Part shown: positions 1 to 48,640 of the stretch, one piece after another
Numbering within the stretch: the stretch's first letter is position 1
How the letters are laid out: each line of letters begins with the position of its first letter
Origin: Thuidium tamariscinum
Taxonomy: Eukaryota > Streptophyta > Bryopsida > Hypnales > Thuidiaceae
DNA length: 64,000 bases
Direction of reading: 5' to 3'
Assembly (NCBI GenBank): GCA_947034885.2
Contig: OX344749.2
Location: forward strand, 560,501 to 624,500
The notes under the pieces: generated by a model
Seen by the model: the letters and a program-made list of their open reading frames with translations, nothing else
The model's database searches: none
What the model was told of the DNA's origin: nothing
Made by a program: the position numbers and the translations under genes

Positions 1-2270
1 TTAGTATATTCATAGAAAAATCTCCTTTCATTGATTTTAAATTATTTTTAGTCACAATTTCCATTGTATTTTTTTTTCAAATGATAAAACATTTTGAACT
101 TCCACATATGGAAATTCTCACCACCAAACATATCCATGACATCCAACAAAAGGACAATAAATCTAATAGACCAACAATTTGATTTGCAATGAAGTACAAT
201 CAAAACCTTAAGAGATCTGAACTTTGAAGTATAAAAGGATCAAAACAACAGATTTCACTTATAATAAAAAAAATTGACCTTTATCAATCACTTAGTTGTA
301 ATCTCAAAATTAAAAAAATTGACCTTATTCAATCTTAGTTGTAACCTCAAATTGACTTCGCTCACAAGTAATTACTTCTTTCCATAATACAATGTTCAAC
401 TACATAAAGACAAAATAGATGTAACTTGCCACCCAACCATGTAAGAGAGATATTGACAGAAATGCTCAACCTAACTACAATCTCCTTCAAATCCCCTTTG
501 AGCTTTGTTACATATCACCCCAAAGTCTTTCAACATAACATAGAATACGTAAAGACTCGCTTAGGTGCACAATACATTGTGCACTATCTCCTAGTGAAGC
601 TTAGGTCCCATGGTGATCCAGCTACCATTAGTATATGGTGCTTGAACTACCAATCATCATAGTATTATCTTATAGTGCATTAGCTATCCTCGAATTCCAA
701 AGGCTTTATATGAATCAAATTCACCTTAACCCTTGAAGGATGGACCAGTGGCCGTGGAAACCTTGCATTTTGATACCGTGTGACATCACCTACTTTGAAA
801 AAGCCAAATATATGCATTGGAAGTCAAAATATTGTAGAAGATCTTCCCTTTCCACCCCCAATACCGAGGATGAAAAGTTGCATTTTTGTCCTAGAAGGAA
901 AGATTCTTTGTCATTCAGCGGACGCCAAATGTCCGCGGCGTCCTTCAAGGGCTAAGTGTTTAATTCCTTCTATGTCAGAGCATACCATGTCTTTCAAAGC
1001 CTTTGAACAAGGAGTTCGAACATCCTGACTTACAGCAGCTAAAATGCTCTGAGAATCAGCAGAACTTCGCAACAAGACCTGTGCACGTTGAGCCCAAAGA
1101 AGCTGGCTGAGCCTGCTGTAAGCAAAAGTTAACTCGAAAGGCTTTAGTTCGAATCTACCATCCACGCCCAGTGCAGCTCCTGCAAGGGGGTGGAGATAAA
1201 CGATTGTTCAGAAGCTTCGGTATTGCCAAGATGCCTTCTCTGGATTTAGGGTTTAAGAGAACGGCGTGTGCACGCAAGCAGGTGATCGATTTTTCACAAG
1301 TACCTCAACTGTTTTTTCGACATGGTTGCTTGCCCCTGGAAAATTTACATTGTCATGCTGTGTGATCTTCTTCACAAAAGACTCATTTTCATGGCGCGAT
1401 CAGATTTTGTGAACCTGCCTTTAAATTTCGATGAGCCCTGGTGCTGTGGCCACCCCACTGGCTAGGAGGACTCCGAAGGCGATGGCCTGGTCGTGCTAGT
1501 GCCTACGTCTTCCAATTCTCGGCTTCTTCCGCATGTCGCAGCAGCGTTTTAATGAAGTGAAGCTTATTAAGTTCCCTTAGAGTCACTGCGGGGGAGAAGC
1601 AGGGAAATTGTAGGGAATGACATGTAAGTAGAGCGTTTGCCCATCTTGCATTCTGGAATCTCACATTCTTGTTAGGTGAGAAGGGAGAGGCTTGTACTTG
1701 CGTTGCTTTAAGCATTTTTAGCAATATTCAAGAGTGCTTTCATTGGGTGATCACTAAAGAGCGCAGAAGTTAGAGATGGATTACTCTATGTTCAGGAGCC
1801 TAATCTGTTGGGATCAAATTCATATCACTATAAATGAAATTTTTATGCAATTTCAAATTGGGAGTGTGTAGGACATTGATAGGATACCAAAAATATTCCA
1901 TGATTCAAAGATTTGAGGTCTTGGACATTTAAGGAAGTCATGTTTACATCACTTGTTAATTGAAGGTGAGTGTATGAATAGATGAGTTGCTATTGATCTC
2001 AATAGGAGATGGGATTAGGTCCCTAATAATCCTACTTTGTAAGATGTTGGCCAACTTCTTATATAAGAGTTTCTGACACTTTAGCATCTTCTTCCTTTTG
2101 CACCAAGTTTTGGCTCACTTGCCACAACCATTGTGGAAATTCATTGATTGTATTCCTGTATAGTTTTCAAGAGCATTGACAAGGATGTCAATGGATACAG
2201 AAGCTATTGATAAGCCATCATATGCTTTGGTTGAAGGTGATTGCCTTTCCCTTAAATCAAGTGAACTAAC
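1..2270. other. AT-rich non-coding stretch, no supported gene
   Basis: No reading frame here has a recognisable domain, a plausible exon series or a paired copy elsewhere in the window. A slightly GC-richer patch at about 880-1500 holds an 84-codon open frame on the minus strand (911-1165). It lacks convincing splice context and family resemblance, so it is left uncalled. It could be a decayed exon or captured gene fragment. Confidence 0.5.
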
Positions 2271-4174: not shown

Positions 4175-6125
4175 AAACACCCAAAACCGTCCAAATAAGG
4201 AATTCATAATAGTTGGAGGTAGAGTTTTCTATTAATGATATTTTGTAGTATTAGCAAGTGAAAATCATGAATATTAAAAAAAAAATTAGATTTTTCGGAC
4301 ATAGTATGTAATTTCTACAAATTTTCAAAGTGTTGGCTCCCTAGACCTGCGGAACCATCCTGTAGGTGCCCAAAAAACTGAACCCTGCAAAAATCAGCAC
4401 TAAGCCAACCAGATTTTCTTATGTGTTCTTCAATTGTGTCAGCAAATTACAATCGCACATGTGGCAAACACATTAACTACATTCTAAGGACATATTTGGG
4501 TGAATCTATGGTCCACTGCAAGGAATAGGTGCGGGAATGGGTGTTTTGCCCTTATCAAGAGAGACCAGCCCACTTTTGTTCTTTGCCCAATTCCATCTCC
4601 TACTACAGACCCCAATTTTGTCAAAAAAAATCCCCCAAATCTATCCAGAAAACCAAGCGCACCCCTCTGAAACAAGGCAGTCTTCCTTACGGAGAGCTTC
4701 TGAAGCACGAGCAACGTGTACTCGAGCTGCATCTGAGCGATTTGTATATAAAAACTCTGTTAATCATTGAGGGGTGGAAGCCACTAAACACAAGAATGAT
4801 GTTCTAATATGATATCCGTTTTTAGAATATCTATTTGATTCTCCTCTAAATGAGGATGCTCTCCCAGATGGACCGAAATATGAAGGCTCCGTCATGCCCG
4901 GAACCATGTTACCGGCATCATCACAGGCTGGCAGAGATAAGTTAGAAAACATTATCGTTTTCAAGCGTCATGTGCGATTGCAGTGCAGGTGAGAAATCAT
5001 TGCTGGGCACCGTTGGGAAGATCATCCCCCATTGGGTAAGAATGTAAGTAAGTACGGCGGGGTAGAGCAACAATTTTCATCCATAGACTGGTTCCATTCC
5101 TGAGGTTGGTAATGGAGAGTGATCGTGGAATATTCTCTTGATTGATGATATTATCTGTAGGCCTACTTGTGCAATTAACGGAAGCAGGGCTTGGGAAATG
5201 CTTTCATTTAATTTCCCCTCCACCAGCAACACCTAAATTGGCTTCGATTAGCTGAGTTTCTACCCCAAACATCCTTGCGCTACCAATACATTACAAATTT
5301 TTTTGTAAAACTACAACAAACTTCATAAATTTGATAGCCAATTTGCAACTTCTTCCACAATGGAATTAGCATTTAGTAAGTTAATTTTATGTTGCAGTAC
5401 TCCCAATAATCCTTCACAACTTGCAAAATTTTGTCTTATCAAGTTTTTTTTAATACTACTCACTGTTGATTCTTGTTTATGTTGAAGGTAGCATGTTGCA
5501 CAAAATTCCATAAATTAGTTCTTGGATCACTGCCAACAACTGTTGAGACTTCTTCTGTACTGGATGCAAGGAAAGCGGTTTGATTGACAACAATGGCCTT
5601 TCCCAAGATGGTGGATATCCTGGAGAGGTTCTTGGATATCCTGGATAGTACGAATGCCATTAAATCAGACCAGTTCTTTCATAACGATCCTGGCATTTGT
5701 GGTTGAGGACAGTGATTCCTCTGCATAATCGGAAGTGCCAAGCGCAAGTCTAGATTTGCTAAAACCAAGTTCTGAAAGCCAGCACGGGCACATCTTGAAT
5801 GATGCTAACGGAAGGCCTACTCTCTAGCTGTTGAACTACACAAGAGAATAAGAAACCTCCACTGTCAAAAAAACCCATCCAAGGAATTCCTCAAATCGGG
5901 GCGAGTGGTCTCGATTCTCCAGACTTTTAAAAGTGTGGATACCCACTTTCGTTTACGAATCGAATCGTCTCAGGCGCCACTGCATCTCAAACTGTTTCCT
6001 TTTTGTCCTAACGGTAACCTAAAGTCTCATTGCCGAAACGGTAATATTCGAGAGATTCCTCATGAACATCGCGAATGTGGACATCGATCTCACCCACGAA
6101 ACTAAATCAATTATTTTTTTCCTTA
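4175..6125. other. Non-coding stretch upstream of the first pyrophosphatase gene
   Basis: No exon series, paired repeat or recognisable domain is visible. It is less AT-rich than the distal spacers, especially at 4500-5000 and 5650-6100. It may hold distal promoter sequence of the gene starting at 6747, but homology with the second copy begins only near 6127, so nothing here is supported by paralogue conservation. Confidence 0.45.
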
Positions 6126-6126
6126 C

Positions 6127-6746
6127 ACAACGGATAACTCTGCACGAGCTGGCGGCGAATGATCGGATGGAAGCACAAGGTCGTGCGGTGGGTCGGGCAG
6201 ACAGAGATGGCTGCCCGCGAAACAAAATTTAGGGCAGGGGAACTGAAGGGGAAGAGTGCAAGACGAAGGGAGTAGCTCATGATCAGCGCTTCTCGACTGT
6301 GTGCCTGCTTGCTGGTGACTCCGCTTTGTGCATCAAGCTCTCCTCCGTCATCGTCGCAGGTTTGCATCTCGCTCGGTTTTTGTTTTGCTGCTTCAGCTTC
6401 CAAATTTCAACTGGTAAAAGTCGTCAGCTTGTGCCTGTGCCTGTATTACTTTCGCACGGGCATTTCTTTCGCATGTCAGGGTTGCCGGCATGCGTCATTA
6501 TCTAGTCATTTCGGACAATGCGCTGTTTTGGTGGTAGGGGTAGTAGTCGTCGTGTGTGAGGAGTGATGCAGCGTCGTGTCCGATCGATTCTTGCTGGATT
6601 TGGTAGAGATCGGGACGTGCTGCGACAATTTCTGCGTTCATTCCTCTGCAGTTGCGAGTAGATTGATAGTCTCTCAACCCTGCGCTGGATGTGCTTGGGC
6701 AGGCGCGGCAGCATCGACTGGCGGAAGGCGATTGGTTGGGTCCGCG
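6127..6746 (+). promoter_or_regulatory. Duplicated promoter / 5' leader of pyrophosphatase copy 1
   Basis: From ACGGATAACTCT near 6127 up to the ATG at 6747, the sequence aligns on the opposite strand with about 47990-48640 upstream of copy 2. Shared blocks include GAGCTGGCGGCGAATGATCG, GTGCGGTGGGTCGGGCA and CTCAACCCTGCGCTGGATGT. Homology stops abruptly further upstream, so this block is the 5' edge of the duplicated unit. A 5'UTR intron is possible, since CTGGTAAAAG near 6411 resembles a donor and TCCTCTGCAG near 6646 an acceptor, both present in copy 2. No TATA box is certain. Confidence 0.6.
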
Positions 6747-9700
6747 ATGGTGTTGGGCGTCGTCTTCGTGTTGGCCTTCGTGCCGTCGGCGTGCGTGGTG
6801 GGCATTCTGTTCGCGCTGTCGCAGTGGTTCATCGTGTCGCGCGTGACGGTGGGCGGAAGCCACGAGAGCAACAATGGCTACCTACACGTGGATGAGGATG
6901 GCATTGACGACTCAGACGTTGTGGGCAAGTGCGCCGAGATCCAGGCCGCCATCTCGGAGGGTGCGTCTCCCTCCCCCTCTTTCTGTGTGCGTGTGCGAGT
7001 CCTGCATTCCCGATGTGGAGGAGTGCGAATGTGGGTGATTGCTTCCAGACCTGCGGGGTATTCTGAGATTGGTTTTGAGTTGTTAGATTGCATTTGGTTG
7101 CGTCAGTGGTGCGTCGGTTTTATTTTGTCCCAGACATGTCTAAACCCTCAGCCCTGTTCAGGATGAAGTGGTGTGTCTAATGTGTCTGGGAGCCTTAGCT
7201 TGCTTGATCGGGCTCCATCAGGAGCTTCTCAATGTTTTCTTGGGGGTATTCCGTGTGCCTCTCGCGACCAATTTCCGGGATCCACCAGATCACCTTCACC
7301 CTCAAAAAATCGGTGTGTGAGGGTTTTGTTTGAATGACAGAGGGTTCTGGTATGTGTTTGCCGGTGTTTCAGGTTCGGAGTCTTTTTTGACGACGGAGTA
7401 CCAGTATCTGGGCGTGTTCATGGGCATCTTCTCTGTGATCATCTTCGTGTTTTTGGCTTCCGTGGGCGGCTTCAGCTTCGACCGTCAGCCGTGCGACTTC
7501 GACCCGGCTCAGTCATGTCCGTCTTCGATCGCGAACGCGTTTTTCAGCACCGTGGCTTTCATTTTGGGCGCCCTGACGTCGACGTTGTCGGGTTACTTGG
7601 GCATGAAGATCGCGACTTACGCGAACGCGAGGACGACCCTGGAGGCTCGTCGCGGCGTGGGGAAGGCTTTCATCGTGGCGTTCCGTTCTGGTTCGGTGAT
7701 GGGTTTCTTGCTTGCGGCGAACGGTCTTCTTGTTCTGTTTTTGACGATTTTGGCGTTCAAGCTGTACTTCGGCGACGACTGGGTGGGTCTGTACGAAGCC
7801 ATCACCGGTTACGGTTTGGGCGGTTCTTCCGTGGCCCTTTTCGGTCGCGTGGGTGGCGGCATTTACACGAAGGCGGCGGACGTGGGCGCTGATTTGGTGG
7901 GTAAGATCGAGCAGAACATCCCCGAGGACGATCCGCGGAACCCCGCTGTAAGTGTCTGTCCCGTCTCCGTTGTTTGTGCGTTTGTGTGTCGCTGTTCGGG
8001 TGCCTTTTTTTGAACAGGGTCGAGTGGATGTGGTGGGTTTGGGTTTTCGAAGATGTAGAACATTGACTCATGTCCCAGTCGGTTCTGATTTTCTGGGAAT
8101 GTCAGTCTGGAGACCCACCTACCTGCATGATTTAGGCAATGTTTCGATGTTCTTGGCTATTCCTGAGCGCCAATTCATTCAGACGTGTGATCTCTGCTGG
8201 TAAGCCATTTGGATCTGCTGAAGACTTGGGTGGGAGTCGATAATGAACTCGGGAAGTTTGGTTCCGAGCTATATCGGTGTGCGAGGTCTGTACGGTCGAG
8301 GATACCGTGGATTTGTGTAGTTGTGCGCGTTGCTGAAGTGTCGCGTTCGTGTGCAGGTGATTGCGGACAACGTGGGCGACAATGTGGGCGACATCGCAGG
8401 TATGGGAGCGGACCTGTTCGGTTCTTTCGCGGAGTCGACTTGCGCGGCTCTGGTGGTGTCTTCGATTTCCTCTTTCGGCACGGACCGCAACTTCGTGGCC
8501 ATGAGCTTCCCGTTGATCATCAGCGCGTCCGGTATTTTGGTGTGCCTGGTGACGACTTTGTTCGCGACGGACGTTTTCACGATCAAGGACGTGAAGGAGA
8601 TCGAGCCGACTTTGAAGCGTCAGTTGATCATTTCTACGATTTTCATGACGGTGGCCATCTTCTTGGTGTCTTGGTTTGCGTTGCCTGCGACGTTCACCAT
8701 CAACGTGGTGGGTCACGTGCCGAAGGTTGTGAAGAACTGGTGAGTTCGCAACTGATCACCTGGAGGCAAAATTCTCTTTGGGTTTTTGGGTGTGCGTGTG
8801 CGAGTGTTTCGTGGTTCTTTTTGGCCCGCGTGGCTTGCATTGATTTTGTGATGTGGTGTTCCCATACTGACACGTGATGGGCATTCGTTTTTGGACGTGC
8901 AGGCACATATTTTTCTGCGTGGGTTCCGGTCTTTGGGCCGGTCTGATCATTGGGTTTGTGACGGAGTACTTCACCAGCAATGCCTACCAGTACGTTTTGC
9001 AGTCTTCCATGTGTACTGAACGAGGACGTTGTTTGAGAGATGTTGTCTTTGGACAAATTGTCGGGACTTAAGGGATGTTGGTCGTTTACGAAGTGCACGG
9101 TGTTTGTTTGGTTCGAGGACCGCAGTGTCCTGGGGGTGTTTTGACTCTATCACGTCCAGGCCTGAATTTGTGTTTGTGTTTCAGGCCCGTGCAAGACGTT
9201 GCTGATTCGTGCAGGACTGGAGCGGCCACGAACATCATCTTCGGTCTCGCTTTGGGTTACAAGTCTGTGATCATCCCTGTGTTCGCCATCGCGGGCGCCA
9301 TCTATTTGAGTTACAGTTTGGCTGCGATGTACGGCATCGCCGTGGCTGCTTTGGGCATGCTGAGCACGTTGGCGACTGGCTTGGCCATCGATGCGTACGG
9401 TCCCATCAGCGACAACGCCGGCGGTATTGCGGAGATGGCTGGTATGAGCCACGAAGTTCGCGAGAGGACGGACGCCCTTGACGCCGCCGGCAACACGACC
9501 GCCGCCATTGGCAAGGTACTTTTGTGTCTCTATGCATTTGAGTGGATGTGTGCATTTAGTCAATACGTTGTCTGTAAGGGTGAACCTATCTGACCGTAGT
9601 AGTGGGTTGTGAGGATTTGGATTTCCTACACTTGTAGGTGTCTCCCTGGGTAATTCTATGGGGTACCGGTTGACAGTTGTGGAGTGGAAGCTATGCTTTT

Positions 9701-10662
9701 TCGGTTTTGAAACAGTAGTTATGGTTTTTTCAGGGCTTCGCCATTGGATCCGCTGCTCTTGTTTCCCTGGCATTGTTCGGAGCATACGTGAGTCGTGCCG
9801 GCATCGCGAGCGTGGACGTGATCCAGCCGAAGGAGTTCGTGGGTTTGCTCGTGGGTGCCATGTTGCCGTATTGGTTTTCTGCGATGACGATGAAGAGCGT
9901 GGGCAAGGCGGCTTTGGCGATGGTGGAGGAGGTGCGTCGTCAGTTCCGCACGATCCCAGGTTTGATGGAGGGCACGACGAAGCCCGACTACAAGCGTTGC
10001 GTGCAGATCTCGACGGACGCTTCGATCAAGGAGATGATTCCTCCCGGCGCTCTGGTGATGCTGACGCCTTTGATCGTGGGCACATTGTTCGGTGTGGAGA
10101 CTCTGGCTGGTCTTTTGGCTGGGGCTTTGGTTTCCGGGGTTCAGGTACTGGACTTTTTCTGGATTTTTTTCGAGTCTCGGGCTGTCGGAATGGAAGCGTG
10201 GGCATGACTACTGTCTTTTGCTTTGCTTGTTTATATCCCAATGGATGCGTGTATGTTTGGAAGGTTTTGTTTCTGACCTGTGAATCTTGTTTTTCGCAGA
10301 TCGCCATCTCTGCGTCCAACACGGGAGGTGCCTGGGATAACGCGAAGAAGTACATTGAGGTGAGGGGATTTCCTGTGGTCGAGGTCGGGGTCTTTATTGG
10401 CAGTACGATTGGGAGTGCGGATTTCTGATGGTGTTTTTCGTGTGTGTTGCAGGCTGGACGTTCCGAGCATGCGAAGTCGTTGGGTCCGAAGGGTTCCGAT
10501 TCGCACAAGGCTGCTGTGATCGGAGACACCGTTGGAGACCCTTTGAAGGACACGTCGGGTCCTTCTCTGAACATTTTGATCAAGCTGATGGCCGTGGAGT
10601 CTCTTGTGTTCGCGCCGTTCTTCGCCGCGAATGGAGGCTGGTTGTTCCGCGTCTGGACGTAA
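6747..10662 (+). CDS. AVP1: Vacuolar-type H+-translocating inorganic pyrophosphatase (type I), copy 1
   Basis: This membrane pump hydrolyses cytosolic pyrophosphate and moves protons into the vacuole. The eight exons are 6747-6960, 7373-7947, 8357-8739, 8903-8989, 9185-9515, 9734-10144, 10300-10359 and 10453-10662. All introns are GT-AG and phases match, giving 756 residues, close to the usual 760-770 of plant type I enzymes. Visible signatures are [11 protein letters not shown] (about 241-251), the acidic motif DNVGDNVGD (267-275), GNTTAAIGK (522-530) and [11 protein letters not shown] (710-720), which supply Mg-PPi-binding aspartates. Ala after NTT, rather than Lys, is the known mark of K+-dependent type I enzymes. 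The start was chosen because [11 protein letters not shown] leads straight into the first membrane helix and is shared with copy 2. Codons are GC-rich against an AT-rich background. It forms a convergent inverted pair with 44184-47989. Confidence 0.97.
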
Positions 10663-11000
10663 ATGTCTAGTGGGTGTTTTGATATTCGTGTTCGACTGTT
10701 GAATGCGAATGTGCTTCGACGTTGTAGGGTGCAGTACATGTGGAAGGTCGCTTAGTTTTAGTAACGGGAAGCGTTCAGAACATATTTGTTTTGGGGATTG
10801 GGAAGGGGAACCTTACTTTGGAGTGTAGGTATAGAGAGTTTAGTTGTGGCGATTGTGTTTTTGTGAACACACTCATATTCTTATTTTGGTGGGTAGTTGA
10901 GCCCCACTAGCATGACATTGGTCGTTATGTTCTGACTTCTTCAAAGCAATGGATCAGGTTATTGCCGCCCCCGCGTATTCTGGCTTCATCATTTTTAGTA
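10663..11000 (+). other. Duplicated 3' flank of pyrophosphatase copy 1
   Basis: Downstream of the TAA, blocks such as TGTGGAAGGTCGCT, TTTGTTTTGGGGAT and GAGCCCCACTAGCATG are shared in inverted orientation with about 43845-44183 below copy 2. This covers the 3'UTR and the inner edge of the inverted duplication. Homology fades near 10990-11000. No polyadenylation signal is clear. Confidence 0.6.
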
Positions 11001-13366: not shown

Positions 13367-14490
13367 AACTTTCTTCCAAACCACAACTAATTTTTTCTTC
13401 AAACTTCTATGGTAAAATGCAGCCGTTTTTTTCACATTTTGAGAAAGTGCCAAGATGGCGATTACCTCAAATTTGGTGAAGCATTGTATTTCTACATTCA
13501 TCCATCTTTTGGACTTAAAAACACTTTTCCATCATATTCATATACTTTTTCATCCAAATTTGGCGACTTCATCCATATTTTAAAGAGAATTGAAAAAAAA
13601 TTGGCAAAAAAAGATTATTTTTTTCTGGTGAAAGAAAGACATTTATTTTGAAATGGTACAATCTGGCCCCAGGGTGCGGAAAAAGAAGAAGGGTTGGTAA
13701 CATGGCGTATGTCACACACTACAACTTTCTTGTATACACTTTTGGACTTTGTACATTGATGCTCAAGGTATGATTGTTTGAATGAAAACATTTAGATTTT
13801 GCACTCAGTTTAGCAATCATTGTAGATTTGATCGTCCAGAAGATTCCTTGTTTGATTTTCAACATCATTTGTTTTCATAATATAATTTCAAGAAGGAAGT
13901 GATTGTAGTTGTTATATTCACGAGAGAGTGCTAAAACTGACCAAGCATTTTCAACCATCCAATAGGGGCTGTGAAATGGACACTTGAACTGGGGGAAAAT
14001 GAACTAAGTATGGATTTCAATAGAACTTGATTAGATCTGTCTTCACTTCTTCAATGGATGGTTTAAGAGCCACACTAGGTTCATTTTTAACTAAGTGGCT
14101 AGGTGTCTATTAATTTAATTCAAAATAAAAATCTATTGTTCAACTACCTTCTTACAAGTTCCAAAAAAATCTGAAATAATTACTAATTCAAGCATTCATT
14201 TCAGATTTAGAAAGGGTTGCTTTTAGAAACCATTTCCATTGCTTTATACATTTTGCGATGCTAGTTTTTGAACAAGCCCTGGATTTTTTTGAAACTATGC
14301 ATGGATGGGTTTCCAAGGGCCTATGATCACATATAGAGACCTATATCAGATTGTGTTTGAAAATTCATAACTAATTCAATAATGCTTCAAAAAAATATGA
14401 AATGACTTGTGTTAGATTCCTCATCCATTTCTCTTTCACTGAAAAATAAACTAAAAATATTTCCATATCAGGAGATACACAAAAAAGGCA
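13367..14490. other. AT-rich non-coding stretch
   Basis: No exons, tandem arrays or paired repeats were identified. Short open frames such as 13409-13651 have low-complexity translations rich in Phe, Lys and Ile and no recognisable motif. Confidence 0.5.
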
Positions 14491-17038: not shown

Positions 17039-17917
17039 CCCTAAATGCTTGAGGCATCCAATTTTGGTGTTGATGGCAATACTTTGAAGTTAAATAAAAC
17101 CTAAGGCCAAATTTCTATTTTTTGTAGTTTCTATTTTTGAAAAATCTTTTTTGAAGTCTAGTTTTAGCATAAAAATTTGATTTTGAAAATGATCGGTTAT
17201 GATTTTTCTATTCAAGATTTTGTGCAAGGGTGTCCATTGCAATCGTGGCTTTCCATAGTGTTGAGGGCTCTTGGAAATGAGACTCAAATACACTAAATCT
17301 TGGGGAAAAAATCACAATACAAATTCATTTAAAAAAAATCATAGAATAGATTTAATTTGAGAAGCCATAAATTGATTGGGATTATGCATGTAATGCCCTT
17401 TCACATTATATTTTTTTTGGTGACCAACTTTTTAGATTTGACATGTGAAAAAAGGATTGAAAGACTTTAACTCTCTTTTGCAAATTTCAAACCCTCATGG
17501 TCAAACATTATAATCTTTCAATCCATAAATAAAATTTTCTTTTCTTTTCTTTTGTGATCTCTAACATGTCTAAATTGAATTTGTACAATAAAAATTTAAA
17601 AAAAAATTGATACAACTTATCAAAATGTTGGCTTTTTGTTCAGGGTAGGGAAAATTCTTTAACCCTGAAGTGTGCCAACGTCCATATTCTTGACGATGAA
17701 TAGAGGTCTTCAAGGCACTGTTTCATCCAATTAACTTATCATTTATCAAATGTAACACTTGAATCTAGAAAAGACAACCTTCCTTAATGAACAAATTCAT
17801 TAAATTTTGGTAAATGATATATCTATACAAAGCTATAAGCAAATACGTGCAAAAATTATCAAAAGGATTGAGACGCTTCAGGGATAAAAGTTCAAAAAAG
17901 GCCTTGGGCATTAAGGG
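17039..17917 (+). mobile_element. CCCTAAATG-ended element, copy 2, with nested insertion
   Basis: It starts CCCTAAATGCTTGAGGCA, preceded by TTAA plus one A, and ends GGCCTTGGGCATTAAGGG at 17917. The termini form an imperfect inverted repeat of about 17 bp (CCCTAAATGCCCAAGGC consensus). A 221-bp CCCTGAA-ended MITE (17663-17883) is nested near its right end. Non-coding. Related copies are at 15194 and 57870. Confidence 0.7.
17663..17883 (-). mobile_element. 221-bp CCCTGAA MITE, copy A (TTAA-flanked)
   Basis: It runs from CCCTGAAGTGTGCC (after TTAA at 17659-17662) to GAGACGCTTCAGGG (before ATAA). It is the inverted, about 90% identical partner of 26606-26826 and has exactly the same length. Both ends begin 5'-CCCTGAARYG. 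The element has no coding capacity. TTAA next to CCC...GGG ends is characteristic of piggyBac-type insertion. Confidence 0.8.
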
Positions 17918-26137: not shown

Positions 26138-29100
26138 CTAGAGCTTGGCATGGAGACCGTTTTCTTTTGGTGGTGTCGGAAGAACTCGTATGATTCCTTC
26201 TTGAGCTAGTGACGCTACCAGCTGCACAGTGCACACCCATATTATCCATGATCAACTACTATGGATTGAAGCATGGGTTTTACAATCAGGTTTCAAATTC
26301 CTGAAATCAATATGTACAGTAAGCCCCAAAACAAATCAATTAAAGACTGAGGGCTAATCAGTGAGAAGATGATGTACCTCACCACTTTGAGTATAGACTC
26401 GACCCAAGCACAGACCACGTGAATTGCATGCACGGTGGCTCTCCGTCTGAATCAATGTACAGGCACATCCATACAAATTGTTTTAGCTTCTGATAGATTA
26501 GAGAATCAAAAATGGCATAATCGAGAAGCTGGACTCTAGACTCTGTGTGCTGTTTCACAAAGGCCAAAATCCCCATATTATAAAATAATAGTAGTTTAAA
26601 GTTAACCCTGAAACGTCTCAATCCTTTTTTGAATTTTTGCGCATTTTCGCTTATAGCTTTGTATAGATATATCATTTACCAGAATTTAATGAATTTGGTC
26701 ATTAATTAAGGTTGTCTTTTCTAGATTTAAGTGTTACATTTGATAAATGAAGAGTTAATTGGATGAAACAGTGCCTTGAAGCCCTCTGTTCATCGTCCAG
26801 AATATGGACGTCGGAGCGCTTCAGGGTTAAACTGCTATTGTGTGTAGTGCAATTCTAGTTACAGATGCCTAGAACAGGGTTTTCAATAATTCAAGACAGT
26901 TTCACAAGCTTTTAGACATCATGAAGAGGAATTCTTCATAAGATATGGGACGAATTCCCTCTGGTTGCAGTGATCCAGATTACGCATTTAGGAAAAGAAT
27001 CACATTGCTAAAGACAGGGACATCCAAAACTGCCCCTTTCGTTATTGAGCGTAGTTCCTGCAATTAAATTGATCTCATTTGTGTACATCCTTGTTTGCAA
27101 AATGGAAAATTAAGGATTCCCAAGCACCAAAGAATGCATTATGTGAACACCTTAAGAAGTATAAGGGTGAATTTTCCAAGGCAGATGCTCTAAAACATCA
27201 TTTCTTTACAGTAGGACTAACACCAGCGGACCATTGGATGACCCAGCACCCGGTGATTTTAGTTGAATTCCCTACCTTAATGGAAGGACACAATGAATAA
27301 GCTTATGCAGGTTGGTTTGTGCCATATGAAAGTAAATACACATCAGAGGAATGTAATGTAATGCATAGTACCACAAAAAGAAGATAATCGTCGACTCGAA
27401 AGGGTCGGTGAAACCATATCCTGCACCATGTCAAAGCCAAAGCTGAATGTCAATGAAGATACTGTTCTACAAACAGATAGACAACCACAAAAGAAATCAG
27501 TAGGTTTTGGTTGTTTTAAGGTTAGGGTTCTAGGGCATTACGAGTGATCGATGCTGGAACCAATGACTGGATGTTTGTTCACCACCATGGTGTGTGGCAT
27601 CATTGCAGTCTCCAGAAACGACCAATCAAAAGTGTAGCCTGCTGCACATCTGATTGAATCATCCCACTTAGTAATTCTGATTTTTTTATATTAAGACAAC
27701 GCTGGTTCAAATTCTTAAACTCAAAAGCATTCCTTTCTTAATATATGCAGATGCGTGCCGGTTTCGGTCCCTAGCTATTTCCCAACTGAAGGCTCAATGT
27801 ACGTACCTGTGGAGGGTTTCATCATCGCCTAGTTTCCCGTTTGTCCGCACCCATAATCTTTGACTGCATGAGAATCCATGTCCATCAAGTCCTCAGTCAG
27901 GCACTTGCTGAAGAAAGTCTTGGCAGCCGTGGGCCATGGAATGTTTGCAGCTGATGCTAAGTGAGATTTCTACATATCCTGTTAATGTTGTCAATATGCT
28001 TGTTTGATATGACTTGGTACTACTGTGCATTCGATGTTCCACTAGTAATGAATTGTTTCTACTACATTGCACCTAATTCCTGTTTGATAGTCATGCAAAC
28101 GTACCGAGGCTCTTGAGGTTCCAAGGTAAGTCGACTCCGACGATAGAAATACCTCAAGTCCAATGTTTCGCTCATTTTCAAGCATGCAATAGCTGGCAGC
28201 CGGATGAATCTAGCAGTGACAGCTCAAGGTCAGATTGAGACTGGATTGAGGTTCAGTCGTTAAATTCTACTTGATGGACATAATAGCAGGTCGCCATCAA
28301 ACTACTCAATCGAATGCAAAGACTTGAAATCAAAGTCATAACAAGGTTTTTTAGTAAAAATAAGGCTGACGATTTCTGGAACGATTGGACAACATCATTC
28401 AAAAAGATCTTTCCCAGTATCCAGAGTCTGCCACAATGATCATACGAAGGCCTCATTTTGTATTATGGAGAGGCCTCTGTAATTATGCGATTCCAGGGAG
28501 ACCTTAGAGAGGATTCTTTTTTGTGGTAATGTCTAAAAGTTCCTGAAACACTCTTATTATTCAAGACCTTTCTGAACAGACAACACTAAATCCTCCAAAA
28601 CACTAAATCCTCCAAAACATACACCCATCACATAATTGCATGCTGAACAAAACTTCGTATGAATGCAGACCAATGACGGTTCAAAGCTTACTCATGTGCA
28701 GGGACACTCACTCAGGAAGGTTTGTGTCATTACAAACCGGCCCCAGCAGTTCTTCATAAGTGGGGAGCTGCAACCATGACCCATGTTTGGACATTAAACT
28801 AGTGACTACCGTTATTCTCTTTCATGTATGATTCACTAGTTTTCCAATTTAATGCTAATTCAAACACCACATACTAGGTACCAGTTGATGAACACCATTC
28901 GCTGATCTCATGTTGATCACTTTTTGATCAGCAAATTGTTGCTTGCATCAGTATTCACTTAAACCTTGAAGGGTGTGACCCTATCACGAAGGTAGTCAGT
29001 CAAAAAACGATCAGATTCTCGGATGAATAGGTGCATTCTTTGTTTCTACAGTTCCCTTTAAAATCATTCATTGGACACTAATAGTCCTCAATGCCCGTAC

Positions 29101-38706: not shown

Positions 38707-38710
38707 TTAA

Positions 38711-39286
38711 CCCTTTAAGGACCGGTCGACCACTTTTGGGTTGATTTTTGCACTTTTTGTCTATTATTAATTATAAAACATCTCATTTCTAAAAACTTAG
38801 AGAACAATGCAAATAGAGTGTCTTTGTGTGCTTCTAACAAAGCCATTTTAAAGGAAATGCATGCAAAAATGCATTAGCTATGCTTGTCCGAACTTAAATT
38901 GCTTGGCCCTTCATATGTGAAATATTGCAAAAAAATATATAATGAATATAAGAGATGACTACTTATATGTGTGAAAGAACTAATTGGAAGGTTTAGGATC
39001 AATTTTTGGAGCATTTAGTGAAATTTATGCCCAATTGTGGCAAACCCTATTTAGCACCATTGCCAGAGGCTATATGTAACACATTAATCTTTGAAAATTA
39101 ATTACAAAGATGTGAACCGTTGGATTGCTTCCATTTTTTTGTTTTATTCAAGGATTTGTCCTATAGAACCAATTCATACAATTTGATGTAGAATTACATT
39201 AATAGAATGGTCGCAAAACAGGATTTTTTAAGAATTGTGTAAAAAAATTGTGCCCACCCCCCAAATCAACCACGGTCCTTAAAGGG
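38711..39286. mobile_element. 576-bp CCCTTTAAGGACCG element, perfect TTAA flanks (piggyBac-like)
   Basis: The ends are CCCTTTAAGGACCG and its exact inverse CGGTCCTTAAAGGG, a 14-bp perfect terminal inverted repeat. TTAA lies immediately outside both ends (38707-38710 and 39287-39290). The subterminal sequence is also partly mirrored (GTTGATTT). There is no transposase. TTAA target duplication plus 5'-CCC ends is the established hallmark of the piggyBac superfamily; membership is inferred from structure only. Confidence 0.8.
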
Positions 39287-39299
39287 TTAAGCAAAGCTA

Positions 39300-43844: not shown

Positions 43845-44183
43845 CTAAACATGAGGAAGACAACACGCAGGGTCGGCAGTAAACGGATCCATTCATTAAA
43901 AGAAGTCGGAACATCATGCGCAATGCCATGCTAGTGGGGCTCTACTTCCCACTGGAATAAGAATATGACCGTGTTAACTAAAACACGCTCGAAAAAACTA
44001 AGCTCTCTATAACTACGCTCCAAAGGAAGGCTCACTCCACTATCCCCAAAACAAACATGTTCCGAACACTTCCGCTACAAAAAACTAGCGACCTTCCACA
44101 TCTCCCAGACTCTCTCTCTCCCAAACCAAAAGCGCATCCGAAGTCCACAGGCGAACACGAACATCCAAACGCATGCCACGCGT
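43845..44183 (-). other. Duplicated 3' flank of pyrophosphatase copy 2
   Basis: Inverted counterpart of 10663-11000: CATGCTAGTGGGGCTC, ATCCCCAAAACAAAC-like and AGCGACCTTCCACAT blocks are shared. It marks the inner edge of the duplicated unit on this side. Confidence 0.6.
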
Positions 44184-47100
44184 CTACGTCCAGATGCGGA
44201 ACAACCAGCCTCCATTCGCGGCGAAGAACGGCGCGAACACAAGAGACTCCACGGCCATCAGCTTGATCAAAATGTTCAGAGAAGGACCCGACGTGTCCTT
44301 CAAAGGGTCTCCAACGGTGTCTCCGATCACAGCAGCCTTGTGCGAATCGGAACCCTTCGGACCCAACGACTTCGCATGCTCGGAACGTCCAGCCTGCAAC
44401 ACACACGAAAAACACCATCAGAAATCCGCACTCCAAATCGACCTGCCAACAAAAATCTCAACCCCAACCACAAGAAATACCCTCACCTCAATGTACTTCT
44501 TCGCGTTATCCCAGGCACCTCCCGTGTTGGACGCAGAGATGGCGATCTGAAAAAAACAAAATCCACAGGTCAAACCACGAAACCGTCCAAACATACACCC
44601 ATCCATGGGGATAGAAAGAAGCAAAACAAAAAAGACAAAGCCACGCCCACGCTTCGATCCCCAGAGCCCGGAAACCCGAAAAAAATCCACAAAAAAGTCC
44701 AGTACCTGCACCCCGGAAACCAAAGCCCCGGCCAAAAGACCCGCCAGCGTCTCCACGCCGAACAACGTGCCCACGATCAAAGGCGTCAGCATCACCAGAG
44801 CGCCGGGAGGAATCATCTCCTTGATCGAAGCGTCCGTCGAGATCTGCACGCAACGCTTGTAGTCGGGCTTCGTCGTGCCCTCCATCAAACCTGGGATCGT
44901 GCGGAACTGACGACGCACCTCCTCAACCATCGCCAAAGCCGCCTTGCCCACGCTCTTCATCGTCATCGCAGAAAACCAATACGGCAACATGGCGCCCACC
45001 AGCAAACCCACGAACTCCTTCGGCTGGATCACGTCCACGCTCGCGATGCCGGCACGACTCACGTACGCTCCGAACAACGCCAGGGAAACAAGAGCAGCGG
45101 ATCCAATCGCGAAGCCCTGAAAAACCCACACCTCATGTTTCAAAGCCGATAAAACATAGCTTCCAATCCACAACTGTCAACCGGTTCCCCATAGAAACAC
45201 CGACAGAGATACCCACAACTGTAGGACATCCGAAGAGCTCATAGCCTCACCCTTGCAGACAATGTAGTTACCAAACGCACAAATGCATAGAGACAACAAA
45301 AGCACCTTGCCAATGGCGGCGGTCGTGTTGCCGGCGGCGTCAAGGGCGTCCGTCCTCTCGCGAACCTCGTGGCTCATACCAGCCATCTCCGCAATACCGC
45401 CGGCGTTGTCGCTGATCGGACCGTACGCATCGATGGCCAAGCCAGTCGCCAACGTGCTCAGCATGCCCAAAGCAGCCACGGCGATGCCGTACATCGCAGC
45501 CAAACTGTAACTCAAGTAGATGGCGCCCGCGATGGCGAACACAGGGATGATCACAGACTTGTAACCCAAAGCGAGACCGAAGATGATGTTCGTGGCGGCT
45601 CCAGTCCGGCAAGAATCAGCAACGTCTTGCACGGGCCTGAAACACAAACACAAATTCAGGCTTCCAAGCACAAGGATCCATCCAACGCACTCTTCACAGA
45701 AGCACTCGGTCAGCGACCAGAAAAAAATGCACGTCCACACACCCAGCCCACACAACAAACAACGTCCACTACACTCAGAGGCTTCCAAAAACGTACTGGT
45801 AGGCGTTGCTGGTGAAATACTCCGTCACAAACCCAATGATCAAACCGGCCCAAAGACCGGAACCCACGCAGAAAAATATGTGCCTGCACGTCCAAAAAAT
45901 CACACGTAAGGCTCGGAACATCACAGCACGAAATCAATGCAAAGCAACCACGCGGGCCAAAAAGAAACCACGAAACACTCGCACACCCAAACACCCAAAC
46001 ACTCAAATTTAACCTCCAGGGGAACACTTGCCGACTCACCAGTTCTTCACAACCTTCGGCAAGTGACCCACCACGTTGATGGTGAACGTTGCAGGCAACG
46101 CAAACCAAGACACCAAGAAGATGGCCACCGTCATGAAAATCGTAGAAATGATCAACTGACGCTTCAAAGTCGGCTCGATCTCCTTCACGTCCTTGATCGT
46201 GAAAACGTCCGTCGCGAACAAAGTCGTCAACAGGCACACCAAAATACCGGACGCGCTGATGATCAACGGGAAGCTCATGGCCACGAAGTTGCGGTCCGTG
46301 CCGAAAGAAGAAATCGAAGACACCACCAGAGCCGCGCAAGTCGACTCCGCAAAAGAACCGAACAGGTCCGCTCCCATACCTGCGATGTCGCCCACATTGT
46401 CGCCCACGTTGTCCGCAATCACCTGCACACGAACGCGACACTTCAGCAACGCGCACAACTACACAAATCCACGGTATCCTCGACCGTACAGACCTCGCAC
46501 ACCGATATAGCTCGGAACCAAACTTCCCGAGTTCATTATCGAGCCTTCAGCACACCCAAATGGCTTACCAGCAGAGATCACGCGTCTGAATGAATTGGTG
46601 TGCAGGAATAGCCAAGAACATCGAAACATCGCCGAAATCATGCAGGCAGGTGGGTCTCCAGACTGACATTCCCAGAAAATCAGAACCGAATCGGTTCTAT
46701 ATCTTCGAAAACCCAAACCGACCACATCCACTCGAACGTGTTCAGAAAATGGCACCCGAACAACGACACACAAACGCACAAACAACGGAGACGGGACAGA
46801 CACTTACAGCGGGGTTCCGCGGATCGTCCTCGGGGATGTTCTGCTCGATCTTACCCACCAAATCAGCGCCCACGTCCGCCGCCTTCGTGTAAATGCCGCC
46901 ACCCACGCGACCGAAAAGGGCCACGGAAGAACCGCCCAAACCGTAACCGGTGATGGCTTCGTACAGACCCACCCAGTCGTCGCCGAAGTACAGCTTGAAC
47001 GCCAAAATCGTCAAAAACAGAACAAGAAGACCGTTCGCCGCAAGCAAGAAACCCATCACCGAACCAGAACGGAACGCCACGATGAAAGCCTTCCCCACGC

Positions 47101-47989
47101 CGCGACGAGCCTCCAGGGTCGTCCTCGCGTTCGCGTAAGTTGCGATCTTCATGCCCAAGTAACCCGACAACGTCGACGTCAGGGCGCCCAAAATGAAAGC
47201 CACGGTGCTGAAAAATGCGTTCGCGATCGAAGACGGACATGACTGAGCCGGGTCGAAGTCGCACGGCTGACGGTCGAAGCTGAAGCCGCCCACGGAAGCC
47301 AAAAACACGAAGATGATCACAGAGAAGATGCCCATGAACACGCCCAGATACTGGTACTCCGTCGTCAAAAAAGACTCCGAACCTGAAACCACGGCATAGA
47401 ACCCTCTGTCATTCACACAAAACCCTCAAACACAGATTTAGTGAAGCTGATCTGGTGGATCCCGGAAATTGGTCGCGACAGGCACACGCAATACCCCCGA
47501 GATAAACACTCACAAGCTCCCAATCAAGCGAGCTCGGGCTCATAGACAAATTACACACACTCCGGTACTTCATCCTGAATAGGGCTGAGGGTTTAGCCCT
47601 GTCTGGAGCAAATTAAAACCTACGCACCGCTGGCGAAACCAAATGCAATCCCGCAACTCAAAACCAATCTCAGAATAACCCCAAGATCTGGAAGCAATCA
47701 CTCGCATTCGCACTCCACCACATCGGGAATGCAGGACCCGCACGCGCACACACACAAAGAGAGAGAGGGACGCACCCTCCGAGATGGCGGCCTGGATCTC
47801 GGCGCACTTGGACACGACGTCGGAGTCGTCAATGCCGTCCTCGTCCACGTGCCTGTACCCATTGTTGCTCTCGTGGCTTCCGCCCACCGTCACGCGCGAA
47901 ACGATGAACCACTGCGACAGCGCGAACAGAATGCCCACCACGCACGCCGAAGGCACGAAGGCCAGCACGAACACGACGCCCAGCACCAT
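44184..47989 (-). CDS. AVP1: Vacuolar-type H+-translocating inorganic pyrophosphatase (type I), copy 2
   Basis: This is the same enzyme as copy 1. Exons on the minus strand are 47989-47776, 47382-46808, 46422-46040, 45883-45797, 45636-45306, 45116-44706, 44546-44487 and 44393-44184. Every exon has exactly the length of its counterpart, giving 756 residues. All catalytic motifs are intact ([29 protein letters not shown]), including the Ala that marks K+-dependent type I enzymes. Differences from copy 1 are L46R, G60S, V328L, V384L and V754I. The first two fall in the variable loop after the first membrane helix, so equal function is likely. Exons are about 99% identical at DNA level (2 of 575 in exon 2, 5 of 383 in exon 3), while several introns are poorly alignable and differ in length. 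Both copies look functional. Confidence 0.97.
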
Positions 47990-48640
47990 CGCGGACCTGA
48001 CCAATCTCCTGCCGCCAGTCGATGCTGCCGTGCCTGCCCGAGCACATCCAGCGCAGGGTTGAGAGACTATCAATCCAGTTGCCACTGCAGAGGAATGAAC
48101 GCAGAGAATTTCCCAGACGTGCCCTATTTATTCCAAATCCGGCAAGAATCCAGATGCAGCAGCCCAAGAAACGATCGGACACGACGCTGCATCACCGATT
48201 GGACACACTGCTACTCCTAAAACAGCGCATAGTCCTAAAGAAACCAGATATTGGACGCACGCCGGCAACCCCGACATGAGAAAGAAATGTCCGTGTAAGA
48301 GTAGTGCAAGCACAGACTCAAGCTGACGACTTTTACCAGACGGAATTTAGAAAACTCAAGCAGCAAAACAGAACACGAGCGAGACGCAAACCTGTGACGG
48401 TGATGGAGAAGCTTGGTGCACAAAGTGGAGTCCGCAGAAGCAGACACACAGTCGAGAAACGCTGCGCAATAATCTTAGAACTGAGCTAACTTATCCCGTC
48501 GTCTTTCACTCTTCCCCTTCACTTTCCCTGCCCTAGGTTTCGATTCACGGGCAGCTCTCTCTGAATGCCCGACCCACCGCACAGACCTTTGTTCCTATCC
48601 GATCATTCGCCGCCAGCTCGAGTAGAGTTATCCGTTATGT
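47990..48640 (-). promoter_or_regulatory. Duplicated promoter / 5' leader of pyrophosphatase copy 2
   Basis: It mirrors 6127-6746. Copy 2 alone has GGAATAAATAGGGCACG (about 48117-48134 on the minus strand), where copy 1 has GGTAGAGATCGGGACG, so a TATA-like element may be present in one paralogue only. Homology ends close to 48640, beyond which the two flanks are unrelated. Confidence 0.55.

Follow-up and report, generated by a model that had tools for sequence, protein, structure and literature searches.

A miniature piggyBac element with a likely autonomous partner in the genome of a land plant, probably a moss

Transposition of piggyBac elements proceeds through a hairpin cutting route, and non-autonomous members of the superfamily, known as MITEs, occur in animals. 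The closest described systems are those of the PDB entries 6x67, which we take to be the Trichoplusia ni piggyBac, and 9c0f (piggyBat). The elements analysed here share with them the DDE_Tnp_1_7 domain, three aspartates, a Cys-rich tail, ends that begin with CCC and a TTAA target, but they differ from both in having a land-plant host. Another apparent difference from 6x67 and 9c0f, for which only the plant copies were inspected, is a long upstream coding region or a separate upstream frame of 435 or 436 aa. The small element, on the other hand, resembles the piggyBac MITEs of animals in being short, non-coding and TTAA-flanked and in sharing its ends with a long copy, and is unlike them in its plant host. 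PB-related MITEs are mentioned in the excerpted text of PMC10813416, which gives CTAA, TAAA, TCAA and TTAG as further flanks of animal piggyBac elements and 1.23–9.51 kb as their lengths, a range within which the 5.1- and 7.2-kb elements of the present genome also fall.

The sequence-only reading had regarded land plants as not known for this superfamily. PiggyBac has been described mainly from animals and fungi, but excerpts of several papers do list plants. In PMC4438587 it is tabulated with the superfamilies that occur in every group examined there, including land plants, plants are named among the sources of piggyBac in the abstract of PMC10813416, and the repeat table of the fern Ceratopteris contains a PiggyBac line (1230, 122417, 0.00; PMC6890710). 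The latter is likewise a land-plant report; compared with that table line, intact frames, ends, TTAA and near-identical copies are described here. The excerpted part of PMC12550479, based on genomes that include four bryophytes, gives five main plant MITE superfamilies, piggyBac not being one of them, nor does the word turn up in that paper. Among the literature matches listed (titles and abstract starts, mostly of non-subscription papers), there was no description of bryophyte piggyBac elements with both ends and transposase, from which absence in print does not follow. The kind of element is already known; what is new is the host, the abundance and the recent movement.

The window, that is the whole stretch of 64,000 nucleotides that was analysed, lies on contig C1 (54.2 Mb). 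Positions 38707-39290 of it consist of TTAA, an element of 576 bp and TTAA again. The two target-site copies, read directly from the sequence, occupy 38707..38710 and 39287..39290, and the non-autonomous piggyBac element between them (38711..39286, plus strand) was aligned to 22 further copies from the 560-600 bp class. The 14-mer CCCTTTAAGGACCG stands inverted at both termini, at 38711-38724 (+) and 39273-39286 (-), with 0 mismatches at each; the earlier description of a TTAA-flanked element with 14-bp inverted ends and exact TTAA on both sides is thus borne out. The terminal repeats of the element family start with CCC, as is characteristic of the piggyBac superfamily. When all TTAA pairs of the window lying 100-5000 bp apart were compared, a 14/14 match of the ends was unique to this pair, and one other pair matched at 13/14. 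With up to 3 mismatches the 14-mer occurs 5 times in the window as compared to a mean of 3.03 in shuffled sequence, and 23 of 100 shuffles reach 5. This is chance level, and the weight therefore rests on the two exact copies. The window copy has a K2P distance of 0.045 from the column majority of its size class and, as its sequence reads, is a past insertion that stands about 4.5% from the family majority.

Other TTAA-associated elements had also been reported from the window, and this holds to a varying degree. A second, different element of 221 bp (26606..26826, plus strand; ends CCCTGAAACG / CCCTGAAGCG) has TTAA on both sides. Its second copy (17663..17883, minus strand), inverted and about 90% alike, is flanked by TTAA and ATAA, and a possible third piggyBac-like element (730..951, plus strand; ends CCCTTGAAGGATGG / CCCTTGAAGGACGC) by TTAA and CTAA; in the window test each end of the latter, taken alone, lies within chance level. 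The first 10 bases of the 221-bp element at 26606-26826 are those of the 3′ end of a 5.1-kb lineage of the same genome (L069, L090, L091), but no likeness past these 10 bases could be seen by eye, so the link to that lineage is weak.

The genome searched comprises 363.2 Mb in 19 contigs. The exact 14-mer was found at 160 sites (79 + 81), whereas the reversed control gave 1, which confirms that the 14-bp ends recur throughout the genome. The TTAA-anchored end TTAACCCTTTAAGGACH was found 299 times (154 + 145) against 0 for the control. For a sample of copies, 60 stretches were taken from 100 listed places among the 160 sites of the 14-mer. Ends were paired when they were 200-2500 bp apart, one being exact and the other having ≤3 mismatches, and 52 of the 60 stretches gave a pair. 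Where several partners were possible the pairing preferred equal flanks, and hence leans towards TTAA/TTAA. The paired elements fall into 24 of 560-600 bp, 17 of 867-893 bp and 11 others of 430-2097 bp. With the same leaning, 41 of the 52 are flanked by TTAA on both sides; the expectation that TTAA would be present at all copies is therefore upheld for these, but not for the 11 that deviate on at least one side. Nine of the latter have TTAA on one side only, including L047 and L055, in both of which the assigned partner end may be spurious; the remaining 2 have it on neither side. These two show equal flanks of another kind, CTAA/CTAA in L017 (1722-2602) and ATAT/ATAT in L027 (2078-2652). Alignment of 23 of the 24 elements of the 560-600 bp class (L020 was left out) gave a median K2P distance of 0.060 to the column majority, with L021 as an outlier at 0.282. 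In L030, from position 612, the CCCTTTAAGGACCG end is preceded by AAAA and followed by a different interior that opens with a GCATCC/GGATGC inverted repeat; perhaps this is another family with the same end.

Sites without the insertion were sought by joining the flanks of the 52 elements with one TTAA kept and comparing them with the window and the fetched stretches. Junction-spanning alignments were obtained for 11 of the 52 flank pairs and were free of gaps at the junction in 9. A clean single TTAA was observed for the elements of L022 (empty site in L050), L026 (in L031; 85.7% over 259 bp), L052 (in both L064 and L059) and L059, whose empty site is window 13967-14213 (80.2% over 248 bp). 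It should be noted that the empty sites found are paralogous repeats and not excision scars. Of 38 empty-site alignments, 12 have TTAA at the target position, 7 TTGA, 5 TCAA and the remaining 14 some other tetranucleotide. An empty TTAA site is seen in related paralogous repeats for several elements, though exactly in only 12 of the 38 alignments, and for the window copy no empty site was found in the window and the fetched stretches.

A longer copy encoding a DDE_Tnp_1_7 transposase, which the sequence-only reading had proposed to look for, was found on contig C7 (G000:C7:5457586-5464802). This 7.2-kb element carries TTAA at both ends. It opens with TTAA and CCCTTTAAGGACTGTGGTCGATTT..., has a minus-strand frame of 585 aa and closes with CCCATTAAGGACTGGTCGACCA and TTAA, the second end CCCATTAAGGACTGGTCGACCA lying 7217 bp from the first. 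It came to light when the end pattern was restricted to those with A or T endings, as a TTAACCCTTTAAGGACH-type end at C7:5457582 lies 1.9 kb from a transposase match; in a comparison by eye of the first 100 listed of the 299 end positions with the transposase positions none had been close. The left end of the window element (38711..38732, plus strand), formed by CCCTTTAAGGACCG and then GTCGACCA, agrees with the 5′ end of the C7 element at 20 of 22 bases, and its right end (39250..39286, minus strand) agrees with the 3′ ends of two loci, at 34 of 37 bases for L084 (the C7 element) and at 35 of 37 for L092. Since the left and right ends diverge after the 14-mer, two distinct ends have been matched. 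Sequence shared between the long and the small elements amounts to about 22 and about 37 bp at the ends only, and the link between them therefore rests on the ends and not on the interior.

The 585-aa frame contains no stops and matches PF13843 (DDE_Tnp_1_7) at 1.7e-74. A zf-Tnp_2 finger match lies below the Pfam cut-off, and nothing beyond these two was detected in Pfam up to E 0.1. Against PDB chains the frame matches 6x67 at 8.5e-30 and 9c0f at 3.9e-25. In the alignment to 6x67, residues D248, D334 and D445 fall on aspartates of its DE, DN and GGVD stretches, which presumably form the catalytic triad, and the three residues are invariant across five transposases of this genome. The C7 element (L084) and the loci L092, L093, L094 and L095 share their 3′ end beside TTAA (in L094, CCCATTAACGACCG), and the transposases of the latter four are 73-96% identical to the C7 copy, with L092 at 96%. 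The C7 element was picked via its end and L093 via a nearby end, whereas L092, L094 and L095 were picked by protein likeness alone. A long coding region precedes the piggyBac domain in the set L069, L090, L091, L070, L081 and L084; in the frames of 1023 and 959 aa it takes up about 400-490 aa, whereas L084 and L081 have a separate upstream frame of 435 and 436 aa respectively, neither of which has a Pfam match up to E 0.1. An element on contig C2 (C2:8264314-8267969, 3656 bp; L082, L035) was considered as an autonomous copy on account of its ends and was set aside when two transposases of the genome, compared with the 2.6 kb of it contained in L035, showed no likeness at E values up to 1. Compared with its 1.5-kb relatives it is longer by a 2.1-kb insert; this insert, at which the alignment to these relatives overlaps by 11 bp, may be a nested element that carries a duplication of its own.

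Copies flanked by TTAA, matching ends and a transposase frame together indicate a non-autonomous family with a likely autonomous partner. On the evidence of sequence, the window element almost certainly belongs to a piggyBac family of its land-plant host, probably a moss, as a miniature member without coding sequence. Of a 7.2-kb transposase-encoding element it retains the two ends alone, and the C7 element is likely to be the autonomous partner of the small family. The earlier suggestion of a piggyBac-like non-autonomous family finds support in the copies with TTAA, the shared ends and the long element with DDE_Tnp_1_7. In the mechanism we propose, a transposase of the C7 lineage or a close relative would recognise both ends of the small element in trans, the ends would be cut by the hairpin route as inferred from piggyBac biochemistry, and the small elements would be joined into TTAA by cut-and-paste. 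A variant within the piggyBac reading is that another lineage moves the small family instead of C7, such as the 556-aa transposase of L081/L079 with the end CCCTTTAGTGGTCG. Transposase lineages that are 32-38% identical do coexist in this genome, with end sequences alike in the first bases. However, among the lineages examined the full end CCC(T/A)TTAA(G/C)GAC..TGGTCGATT is present only in the C7 lineage (five copies including L084), and movement by another lineage is accordingly considered unlikely.

A TTAA target by itself fails to separate piggyBac from Kolobok, which duplicates TTAA too, and the element could in principle belong to this or some other TTAA-duplicating superfamily. In the long element with the same ends, however, the encoded protein is a DDE_Tnp_1_7 transposase that has the expected aspartates and can be aligned to 6x67 and 9c0f, and no Kolobok-type transposase was seen in the long copy when its 585-aa frame was searched against Pfam up to E 0.1. 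Moreover, animal piggyBac ends most often begin with CCCTT according to the excerpted text of PMC10813416. Assignment to such a superfamily is therefore very improbable.

The piggyBac superfamily is known mostly from animals, fungi and protists (excerpt of PMC12732532), so the sequences might have come from animal or fungal contamination or from a host that is not a plant. Against this, the window element sits on the 54.2-Mb contig between two copies of a V-PPase gene, and a stretch of one of them, the single copy compared, matches the pump 4a01, presumably that of mung bean, at 1.6e-91. Ends with A or T after GGAC are present on every contig from C1 to C11. The assembly contains 49 chlorophyll a/b-binding matches, some of which are exons of one gene. 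The light-harvesting (LHC) protein of L086 matches best two long chains of 9vfj, each with several such domains (548 and 464 bits), followed by 8htu and 7xqp, which we take to be of Physcomitrium patens (455 bits), and then by 1rwt, presumably of spinach, and others (≤440 bits). A miR166-like locus (2.2e-11; 59.2 bits, under the Rfam gathering score of 60) and a miR1023-like locus (4.2e-13; 71.7 bits, under the gathering score of 90) are present as well, and we take miR1023 to be a moss family. Ten contigs of 24-54 Mb, with an eleventh of at least 9 Mb, agree with the 11 chromosomes given in the abstracts of three moss genome notes. The markers point to a land plant as host, probably a moss, and a foreign origin of the elements can hardly be entertained. 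The V-PPase copies are themselves inverted, at 6124-11000 (+) and 43860-48640 (-), with matching arms 33-42 kb apart in which identity is 98% over some stretches and 79-93% over others. Elsewhere, too, a number of LHC and transposase matches form opposite-strand pairs with equal scores, perhaps a sign that inverted duplicates undergo gene conversion. As for a TTAA-flanked inverted repeat arisen by chance, the 445 TTAA sites of the window do offer many pairs, but 50 dinucleotide-preserving shuffles of the window gave zero TTAA pairs at 13 or 14 of 14 and the family is repeated genome-wide, so that its probability is negligible.

The genome contains a sizeable number of piggyBac transposases. 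At least 116 matches to PF13843 were obtained from the 116 of 659 first-look candidates that were scored; all those listed lie above the cut-off, the best at 5.7e-80, and there were zero matches in 14 control genomes, which do not serve as a plant control. The ends at ten transposase loci differ by lineage. GGG followed by TTAA occurs in the 3′ flanks (2.2 kb) of 8 of the 10, a count made without a chance control, and the two lacking it are L071 and L075. Ten PF13843 matches share one score and a 1023-aa frame, and three of these ten were compared for the identity figures of the 5.1-kb lineage. The copies on C5 and C9 are elements of 5088 bp, each bounded by TTAA on either side and each in a different flanking sequence, and are 99.96% identical over 5103 bp, with 2 mismatches. 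The C2 copy, compared without its left end, is identical to the C5 copy in 4144 of 4145 bp. Two 5.1-kb copies that are 99.96% identical imply that piggyBac has moved recently in this genome. It should be emphasised that the 5.1-kb lineage (L069, L090, L091) is a different piggyBac lineage and not the partner of the window element.

On balance our data favour a piggyBac population that is both large and diversified, in a land-plant host that is probably a moss, with miniature families alongside and with at least one lineage, of 5.1 kb, that is either active at present or was so very recently; plant enzymes with a long N-terminal extension may constitute a separate lineage. Marker excision in plants has been carried out with an animal-derived piggyBac, as stated in a title cited in PMC12732532, and a plant-native transposase might serve the same end. 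Open and near-identical piggyBac copies in a plant make it possible to ask by what route the superfamily reached land plants and if it is silenced by its host.
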